The translations under genes were made by a program, and so were the position numbers. Below are positions 40,127 to 42,808 of a stretch of 64,000 nt of DNA, piece by piece. Position 1 is the first letter of the stretch; each line of letters starts with the position of its first letter. The notes under the pieces are model-generated. The model saw only the letters and a list, made by a program, of their open reading frames with translations. It did no database searches and was not told where the DNA came from. The DNA lies in assembly GCA_018673215.1 (NCBI GenBank), contig JABHDE010000076.1:56991-120990 (forward strand). The letters run 5' to 3'. The stretch comes from Formosa sp. (GTDB taxonomy: Bacteria > Bacteroidota > Bacteroidia > Flavobacteriales > Flavobacteriaceae).

Positions 40127-42025
40127 ATGAGCGATGCTATAAAACACGAATGTGGAATTGCACACATTAGACTTTTAAAACCATTAGAGTTTTATAAAAA
40201 GAAATACGGAACAGCTTTTTATGGGATCAATAAGATGTACCTTATTATGGAAAAGCAACACAACCGTGGACAAGATGGCGCGGGTTTTGCGAGTATCAAA
40301 TTGGACATGCAACCTGGAGAGCGTTATATCAGTCGGGTTCGTTCGATCGCACAACAGCCAATTCAGGATATTTTTGCTCAGATCAACAATAGAATAAACG
40401 ATGTATTGGCAGAACAACCCGAAGTAGCTAATGATGCGGAGGCACAAAAAAAGGCAGTTCCTTATCTGGGAGAGGTGATGTTGGGCCATGTTCGCTATGG
40501 AACGTTTGGGAAAAACAGTGTTGAGAGTGTACATCCTTTTTTGAGACAGAACAATTGGATGCACCGAAATGTGATTTTAGCAGGAAATTTTAATATGACT
40601 AACGTTAAAAGTTTATTTAAAAACCTTGTTGAAATTGGACAGCACCCTAAAGAGTACACAGACACCATTACAATCATGGAGAAGATTGGACATTTTTTGG
40701 ATGATGCTGTTTCGAAACTGTACAAGAAACTCAAAAAGGAAGGGTATACCAAAATGGAGTGTTCGCCATTGATTGCAGAACGTTTGAATCTAAAAAAAAT
40801 ATTAAAAAAAGCTGCTAAAAGCTGGGACGGAGGTTATGCTATGGCGGGGCTTTTAGGTCATGGGGATTCCTTTGTTTTAAGAGATCCTTCTGGAATTCGT
40901 CCAGCCTATTATTACATGGATGACGAAGTAGTGGTTGTCGCTTCTGAGCGCCCTGTAATTCAAACTGTTTTTAATGTTGATTATGATGCGGTTCATGAGT
41001 TGCCACCAGGTAGTGCTATTATTACCAAAACGTCGGGAGAAACATCGATCAATCAAATTTTGGAGCCTTTAGAGCGTATGGCGTGCTCCTTTGAACGTAT
41101 ATATTTTTCAAGAGGAAGTGATGCTGAAATTTATCAAGAGCGCAAACTACTAGGAAAACTGATTGTTCCAGAAGTTTTGAAGCATGTAGATTATGACATT
41201 AAAAGCACGGTATTTTCTTACATACCGAATACAGCAGAAACCTCTTTTTTTGGAATGATTGAAAATGTAGAAGAGTATTTGAATAAGAAGAAAACCACGC
41301 AAATATTAAAAGGGACACGCTCTCTTTCTGCAGAAAAAGTAACTCAAATCCTTTCGGAACATACACGTGTCGAAAAAATCGCAATTAAAGATGTTAAACT
41401 TAGAACATTCATTACTGAAGATAGCAGTCGTGATGATTTAGTAGCCCATGTGTACGACGTGACTTATGGAGTTATTAAACCAGAAGACAACCTTGTCATT
41501 ATAGACGATAGTATTGTTCGAGGGACAACTTTAAAGAAAAGTATTCTAAAAATGGTGGATCGATTGAAACCTAAACGTATTGTAGTGGTCTCTTCAGCTC
41601 CGCAAATTCGTTATCCAGATTGTTACGGGATAGACATGGCTAACCTTGAGGGGTTGGTAGCGTTTAGAGCAGCACTAGAATTGTTGAAAGACGCAAATAT
41701 GTACCATATTGTTGAAGAAATTTATACACGCTGTAAGGCACAAGAAAATTTAAAAGATACGGAGGTTAAGAACTTTGTAAAAGAAATTTATGCACCATTT
41801 ACTCCTCAACAAGTGTCAGATAAAATTGCAGAGTTGTTGAGTGAAGAAGGGATCAATGCTGAGGTCAAAATCATATTTCAATCTATAGAAAACTTACACA
41901 CCGCCTGCCCAAAAAATTTAGGGGACTGGTATTTTACAGGAAATTATCCTACACCTGGTGGCAATCGAGTTGTGAATCGGGCTTATATTAACTTTTTTGA
42001 AGAGAACAATGAAAGAGCTTACTAG
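40127..42025 (+). CDS. purF: Amidophosphoribosyltransferase (PurF-like)
   Basis: ECGIAHIR, KQHNRGQDGAGFAS, PRTase motif LVIIDDSIVRGTTLK. Confidence 0.9.
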   Translation: MSDAIKHECGIAHIRLLKPLEFYKKKYGTAFYGINKMYLIMEKQHNRGQDGAGFASIKLDMQPGERYISRVRSIAQQPIQDIFAQINNRINDVLAEQPEVANDAEAQKKAVPYLGEVMLGHVRYGTFGKNSVESVHPFLRQNNWMHRNVILAGNFNMTNVKSLFKNLVEIGQHPKEYTDTITIMEKIGHFLDDAVSKLYKKLKKEGYTKMECSPLIAERLNLKKILKKAAKSWDGGYAMAGLLGHGDSFVLRDPSGIRPAYYYMDDEVVVVASERPVIQTVFNVDYDAVHELPPGSAIITKTSGETSINQILEPLERMACSFERIYFSRGSDAEIYQERKLLGKLIVPEVLKHVDYDIKSTVFSYIPNTAETSFFGMIENVEEYLNKKKTTQILKGTRSLSAEKVTQILSEHTRVEKIAIKDVKLRTFITEDSSRDDLVAHVYDVTYGVIKPEDNLVIIDDSIVRGTTLKKSILKMVDRLKPKRIVVVSSAPQIRYPDCYGIDMANLEGLVAFRAALELLKDANMYHIVEEIYTRCKAQENLKDTEVKNFVKEIYAPFTPQQVSDKIAELLSEEGINAEVKIIFQSIENLHTACPKNLGDWYFTGNYPTPGGNRVVNRAYINFFEENNERAY

Positions 42026-42033
42026 ATCAAAGA

Positions 42034-42066
42034 GCAGTTCGTCTAATAAATACGCAGTTCGTCTAA
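42034..42066 (+). promoter_or_regulatory. Tandem direct repeat GCAGTTCGTCTAA x2 (LytTR-like operator)
   Basis: Copies at 42034-42046 and 42054-42066, 20-bp period, upstream of a promoter-like sequence. Confidence 0.6.
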
Positions 42067-42072
42067 AATATG

Positions 42073-42102
42073 TTTGTACTATATATTAAACTTATATATT
42101 TG
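42073..42102 (+). promoter_or_regulatory. Bacteroidetes-type promoter
   Basis: TTTG at 42073-42076, 18 nt spacer, TATATTTG (TAnnTTTG) at 42095-42102. Confidence 0.6.
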
Positions 42103-42107
42103 AGTAA

Positions 42108-42178
42108 CCATAACATAAGTAGGTTAAGTTCATGGTAGATTTGGGGCAAAAAAGGTGAACGCAAGTTCACCTTTTTTA
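42108..42178 (+). ncRNA. Candidate small RNA (about 70 nt) ending in an intrinsic terminator
   Basis: Operator plus promoter upstream, terminator AAAAAAGGTGAAC-GCAA-GTTCACCTTTTTT downstream, no sizeable ORF between. Confidence 0.5.
42149..42178. terminator. Intrinsic terminator between purF and sod
   Basis: GGTGAAC-GCAA-GTTCACC stem-loop with A6/T6 flanks. Confidence 0.9.
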
Positions 42179-42199: not shown

Positions 42200-42808
42200 T
42201 TATTTTGCAGCCAAAAATCGCTTTTCAACTTCTTTCCAGTTAATCACATTAAAGAATGCTTCAATATAATCCGGACGACGGTTTTGGTAGTTTAAGTAAT
42301 AGGCGTGTTCCCAAACATCTAAGCCCAAAATTGGAGTCCCTTCACAAGAAACACCTGGCATTAATGGATTATCTTGATTAGGAGTAGAACACACTTCTAC
42401 CTTACCGCCTTTATGAACACATAACCAAGCCCATCCAGATCCAAACTGTGTAGCCGCTGCCTTACTGAATGCGGTTTTAAAATCTTCGAAAGCACCATAA
42501 GCGGCTAGGATTGCTTCTTTAAGCTCGCCAGAAAGGGCTTCTTTCCCCTCAGGATTCATAACCTCCCAAAACAAAGAATGGTTGTAAAACCCGCCTCCAT
42601 TATTACGAACTGCCTTATTAGACATATCCAAGTCTCCAAGGATTGTTTCAATTGATTTGTTTTCTAAATCAGTTCCTGCAATTGCAGCATTTAGATTGTT
42701 TGTATACCCATTATGATGTTTAGAGTGGTGGATTTCCATTGTTCGTGCATCAATATTAGGCTCGAGCGCATCGTAAGCATAATTTAATTTTGGTAATTCA
42801 AAAGCCAT
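42200..42808 (-). CDS. sod: Superoxide dismutase [Fe/Mn]
   Basis: [57 protein letters not shown]. Confidence 0.96.

Follow-up and report, generated by a model that had tools for sequence, protein, structure and literature searches.

A conserved predicted small RNA gene between purF and sod in Flavobacteriaceae, with LytTR-like boxes and a complementary small-ORF partner

In the window, that is, the whole 64-kb stretch of DNA analysed here, purF (40127–42025, forward strand) is followed by the convergent superoxide dismutase gene sod (42200–42808, reverse strand), and both are conserved neighbours of the locus by synteny. The question is whether the gap between them holds a regulated small RNA (sRNA) gene, as the first-pass annotation had proposed, or just a terminator, and, if there is such an RNA, what it may act on.

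The gene and its conservation in the family

The gap opens with two LytTR-like direct repeats, GCAGTTCGTCTAA at 42034–42046 and again at 42054–42066 on the forward strand, whose centres lie at about −67 and −47 from the inferred transcription start. They have the 20-bp period that was originally read from the sequence, and their spacing proved to be fixed family-wide. Downstream lies the −7 promoter element TATATTTG (TAnnTTTG; 42095–42102, forward strand), which occupies a fixed position relative to CCAT throughout the family and from which the 5′ end of the sRNA (42107) was inferred. Based on the covariance-model match and on conservation, the predicted sRNA, with putative ends, spans 42107–42177 on the forward strand, which revises the earlier length of ~70 nt to ~71 nt. 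It comprises a 5′ hairpin (42107–42136), supported by folding and pair counts and holding the seed CAUAAGUAGGUU (42114–42125) in and beside its loop, a second, single-stranded seed AGAUUUGGGGC (42137–42147) with an unpaired probability of ~1 in the fold, and an intrinsic terminator (42148–42177), all on the same strand. The terminator has 13 pairs, a GCAA loop and T6; it lies, like the boxes, the −7 element and the short transcribed stretch, where it was initially described.

Within the window, the pair of GCAGTTCGTCTAA copies are the sole matches at up to two mismatches; two such matches also arose in 39 of 100 shuffles, so that they are not rare by chance. Taken together, the candidate stretch folds with a modest z-score (−2.0). 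As chance alone could yield two near box matches, the case for the locus rests on conservation.

Flavobacteriaceae are very common marine and soil bacteria, and most of those tested carry this predicted small RNA gene. In a DNA search of 57 relatives, each of the 18 congeneric genomes proved to have the purF–sod gap, with a single sRNA copy; in other genera of the family, the matches were restricted to the RNA and its terminator, often with several per genome. The first ~40 nt of the sRNA are nearly invariant across Flavobacteriaceae, with the core CCATARCATAAGTAGGTTAAGTTCATGGTA(A)GATTTGGGG, and Flavobacterium versions carry CATTAG and TTTATGG. A strict pattern was present in 104 of 199 genera of the family, a count that leaves out the insertion-bearing type of Zobellia and its relatives. 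In the Zobellia/Maribacter group, a 1-nt insertion converts TAGATTTG into TAAGATTTG and breaks the frame of MVDLGQKR, the 8-codon ORF listed in the first-pass annotation. This ORF is therefore not conserved, and a peptide-coding reading of it was rejected.

The covariance search that had been suggested for this RNA gave 60–100 bits only in Flavobacteriaceae (99.8 bits for the window copy, at 42108–42178) and at most 35 bits in other families, the samples outside the family being 292 genomes of the order and 248 of the phylum. Among the matches listed, those with names were Flavobacteriaceae or MAGs labelled only Flavobacteriia or Bacteroidetes/Bacteroidota. Genomes carry 1–6 copies, usually in tandem, the order being purF, then the sRNA copies on the same strand, facing sod; purF and/or sod adjoin the sRNA in 76 of 80 named loci, and copies outside this gap occur at L035, L037, L038, L043 and L044. 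Tandem copies are mostly 175–250 bp apart, and each has its own boxes and −7 element. Divergent sRNA-like copies (L273, L281, L282) keep CCATAA...TTATGGTAGATTTGGGG with loops that are changed or very long. The viral contigs and plasmids searched held no match to the sRNA, and phage records matched its terminator part only; the gene thus looks chromosomal and vertically inherited.

Folding of the alignment together with pair counts supported both the 5′ hairpin and the terminator. In the terminator, both partners had changed in 11 of 12 pairs, more than in any shuffle or slide, while support for the 5′ hairpin is weaker because it hardly varies and covariation barely tests its pairs. One relative (L018) keeps the 5′ hairpin with other loop and stem letters, CCATGTTG...AACATGG.

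These data bear directly on the simplest rival reading, in which the hairpin is merely the terminator of purF, or of purF and sod, preceded by chance boxes. The hairpin does make a good terminator, which, owing to the A-tract on its other side, can also serve the convergent sod; however, it is preceded by a 40-nt invariant stretch and by promoter elements in fixed positions, the unit is duplicated in tandem, and copies stand at other loci, which makes this reading extremely improbable. Boxes, promoter and RNA, whose lack of conservation would have spoken against the original proposal, are all conserved at fixed spacing, and a regulated sRNA gene is clearly the best reading of the locus. The first-pass annotation missed two things: the predicted RNA is family-wide and multicopy, and an mRNA encoded elsewhere is strongly complementary to it.

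Predicted promoter architecture and the LytTR-like boxes

Across 234 non-redundant upstream regions, the box core TTNRTC recurs at −50/−51 and −70/−71 from CCAT, with a lag of 20 in 128 instances and of 21 in 27 (8 and 7, respectively, on the reverse strand), and TAnnTTTG is fixed at −13 to −6 across the family. The promoter had at first been described as TTTG-N18 followed by the downstream element; the window does have a TTTG 18 nt ahead of the −7 element, but this is not conserved family-wide: outside Flavobacterium, 20% of the upstream regions have a TTTG in the corresponding segment. None of the positions around −33 carries a conserved element in the 234 regions, which suggests a promoter of the activated type.

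The sites of LytTR response regulators consist of two repeats of 9–11 nt separated by 11–13 nt, and one such regulator, YpdB, binds GGCATTTCAT (PMC4847170). The window repeats, GCAGTTCGT, an 11-nt spacer and GCAGTTCGT, fit this repeat and spacing rule (PMC4847170). The window box is a variant, GCAGTTCGTC, of the family consensus box GCATTTCATC, which holds nine of the ten bases of the YpdB repeat, the first G being missing. In E. coli, the YpdB/yhjX promoter (PMC4847170) is likewise preceded by two GCATTTCAT-type direct repeats spaced by 11 nt; here, in contrast, the boxes precede a predicted sRNA promoter, have a 20-bp period and belong to a Bacteroidota host.

Almost the only paired boxes of this pattern in the window's genus are those of the sRNA, and each of the 18 genomes has 1–5 LytTR genes (three in G000). 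The predicted LytTR assignment made originally is strengthened by the consensus box, the repeat length, the spacing and the presence of these genes, and a LytTR-type regulator probably activates the sRNA. A LytTR match spanning profile positions 5–97 occurs in nearly all genomes of the genus. In the two loci read (L437, L438), it corresponds to a response regulator near priA and rpsF, which would be the prime candidate activator. The 3-kb loci of this regulator contain no histidine kinase gene.

Paired LytTR-like boxes (CATTTYATCGA...) were also seen in other genera before short non-coding or unassigned stretches (L207, L210, L227, L228, L233), and those at L211 turned out to be the promoter of a small ORF.

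A complementary small ORF beside scoB and its possible roles

When the complement of the 3′ seed was searched for, matches in four genera fell in the intergenic region that separates scoB from a convergent ABC ATPase gene; a pattern search for this partner site extended the distribution to ~40 genera. In 30 loci from the pattern search, scoB lay beside the site in 17 and the ABC ATPase gene in one more (L297). The partner loci (L286–L289 and L290–L331), in the scoB/ABC-ATPase gap of many Flavobacteriaceae, contain an unannotated ORF of 33–49 aa that, according to the reading frames, mostly ends in TKK(I/L)FML. This ORF had no match in Pfam or NCBIfam and is constrained as a protein, with differences by codon position of 2213:1299:2906; the idea of a pure sponge RNA at scoB was dropped, given an ORF with protein-level conservation. 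The boxes that precede the sRNA recur, at lag 20, in the promoter of this ORF.

The sRNA complements fall at two sites, the first just upstream of the partner start codon, often ending in CTTATG, and the second over codons ~4–12 (NLPExPT). The 5′ seed CAUAAGUAGGUU is the complement of AACCTACTTATG, the start-codon context of the partner ORF, and the complement of AGAUUUGGGGC at this ORF is CCCCAAATCT. In the pattern-found loci, the sRNA–partner duplex has a mean energy of −40 kcal/mol (z −7), and the best duplex among 363 control start regions reached −33.5 kcal/mol. Since those loci had been selected for the seed, the test was repeated on regions found by scoB alone: z was below −4 in 7 of the 11 sRNA-bearing genera outside the window's genus, and ranged from −2.4 to +1.7 in genera without the sRNA, in outgroups, in Flavobacterium and in the window's genus. 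For the Zobellia group, the predicted pairing is weak. Leucine is encoded by CTA in 21 of 22 cases in the partner, against a local use of 10%, a bias that indicates selection on the nucleotides. The sRNA is present in 36 of 38 partner-bearing genera and in 69 of 162 other genera (p 8e-10; tallied by hand from two tables). On the basis of this complementarity between sRNA and partner mRNA, translational repression is predicted.

Both the window's genus and Flavobacterium keep the sRNA but lack the small ORF in the scoB gap, and further targets must therefore exist. In the window's genus, searches with seed complements revealed no conserved strong target: the 13 non-sRNA sites read for exact ACCTACTTATG included none conserved as a start site genus-wide, and the full-seed complement CCCAAATCTACC found essentially the sRNA itself only, extra matches in G017 (L274, L275) lying opposite long ORFs. 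A possible second target is the gene of a 147-aa protein in two genera (L056, 1387–944, and L057, 1389–946, reverse strand), divergent from a LamB/YcsF-type gene. It has the same boxes, and its product has two CxxC-type cysteines near the N-terminus and is without a match in Pfam. At −29 to −31 kcal/mol, the complementarity of its leader does not exceed the upper tail of the control energies, which makes this gene a lead only. In some Flavobacterium genomes (L448, L450, L456, L458, at ~2370–2530), the same boxes precede, in the gap downstream of scoB, a secreted-protein gene encoding a signal peptide, HEKFQLYEQGIKVEFANYTLHS..., and possibly a metalloprotease propeptide; in L458, CCCCAAATCGATTATG stands at its start.

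Taken together, we consider it likely that this is a family-wide, often multicopy trans-acting sRNA that is activated by a LytTR-type regulator, blocks translation of the partner in many genera and acts on other targets in the window's genus. A LytTR-type response regulator would bind the two direct repeats and activate a promoter devoid of a conserved −33 element; the resulting ~71-nt RNA would end at its own terminator and present two linked seeds, CAUAAGUAGGUU in the hairpin loop region and the single-stranded AGAUUUGGGGC. Over 20–40 bp, this RNA would in many genera pair with the start region of the 33–49-aa ORF, just upstream of the start codon, often reaching it, and over the first codons, and so would block translation; in the window's genus, where the partner is missing at scoB, the RNA would act on other mRNAs. 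A bolder version, which we hold only tentatively and at rather less than even odds, is a two-part module in which LytTR drives both the sRNA and an amphipathic-peptide mRNA with tandem sRNA complements in its leader and first codons, the N-terminal NLPExPT segment of the peptide being dictated by pairing with the RNA; this would be a new feed-forward or toxin–antitoxin-like switch.

Alternatively, the small-ORF mRNA might mainly serve as a decoy, drawing the sRNA off its other targets, which do exist if the RNA persists in genomes that lack this mRNA. In favour of this are the two to three complementary sites in one short transcript and the boxes shared by both genes. However, a conserved protein is encoded downstream and the sites lie on the translation start, as expected for a target; the two roles are compatible, and a mainly sponge-like function appears unlikely.

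In type I toxin–antitoxin systems with a trans-encoded RNA antitoxin, a small-peptide mRNA is countered by an RNA complementary to its start region. A small-peptide ORF with long antisense complementarity to an RNA is also what is found here, and the peptide could be membrane-active, the multicopy sRNA serving as its trans-encoded antitoxin and persisting in peptide-less genomes as a relic or for other uses. The C-terminus of the peptide is cationic and amphipathic (mean hydrophobic moment 0.42, net charge +2 to +5), the complementarity across the start region is very long, and the co-occurrence is one-way, the ORF being almost never found without the RNA and the RNA often without the ORF; these features keep such a reading in play. 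Nevertheless, the toxicity is putative, the hydrophobic moment of single sequences is not clearly above that of shuffles, and mean hydrophobicity is below that expected of a transmembrane toxin. The mRNA and the RNA, moreover, share a box type, and the RNA is strictly conserved where the peptide ORF is missing, as a relic antitoxin would not be. We therefore regard a toxin–antitoxin-like pair as rather unlikely, a little more so than the decoy, and keep the activated, target-blocking sRNA as the preferred reading.

Relation to described sRNAs and significance

No Rfam family matched at threshold, and weak matches such as STnc40 and sraA were rejected as terminator-driven. With 1–6 paralogous copies that share a conserved seed, the RNA has the make-up of a multicopy base-pairing sRNA. 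The nearest described family in concept is FopS/GibS of Bacteroides, Rfam RF04319 (PMC11697453, PMC7366714), which likewise comprises multicopy base-pairing Bacteroidota sRNAs with start-codon pairing, an intrinsic terminator and a short shared UUCAUGG..AGAUUU stretch. FopS sRNAs also bind RbpB, an RRM-1 protein. Distant homology with this family, with action on SusC-type transporters, might be argued from the copy number, from the aligned stretch UUCAUGGUAUUAGAUUU versus UUCAUGG---UAGAUUU and from the binding of FopS at start codons (PMC11697453). Against it, the RF04319 score is 21.7 bits for a gathering threshold of 56, the partial match of the FopS R1 seed to the sRNA gave a targeted shuffle p of only 0.005–0.045, and strong intermediates were absent outside Flavobacteriaceae among the 292 order and 248 phylum genomes. 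In addition, the FopS model has no 5′ hairpin, whereas a 5′ hairpin and LytTR-like boxes are present here; FopS was described from Bacteroidaceae, with canonical sigma-ABfr promoters, and its known targets differ from the target predicted here. Such homology is improbable, and the seed similarity is suggestive only.

Rfp18 of Flavobacterium psychrophilum is an sRNA conserved within its genus, where the present sRNA family occurs as well; in contrast to the RNA presented here, it is described with a third stem-loop and metalloprotease targets (PMC9723704). This comparison is by description, and the two RNAs are possibly identical. No published description of the present RNA was found in a literature search of openly readable main texts.

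Few base-pairing sRNAs have been characterised in Bacteroidota, and the described ones that were found come from Bacteroides and one Flavobacterium pathogen. The sRNA presented here hardly varies throughout a very large family of marine and soil bacteria, and its regulator class, its promoter architecture and a two-site partner mRNA can be predicted. The partner ORF (NLPExPT ... TKKIFML) is of interest on its own. If the proposed reading is true, an unannotated small protein would come to light, LytTR signalling would be linked to sRNA control, and a conserved sRNA–mRNA pair would allow the study of translational repression in a phylum that seldom uses Shine–Dalgarno pairing.
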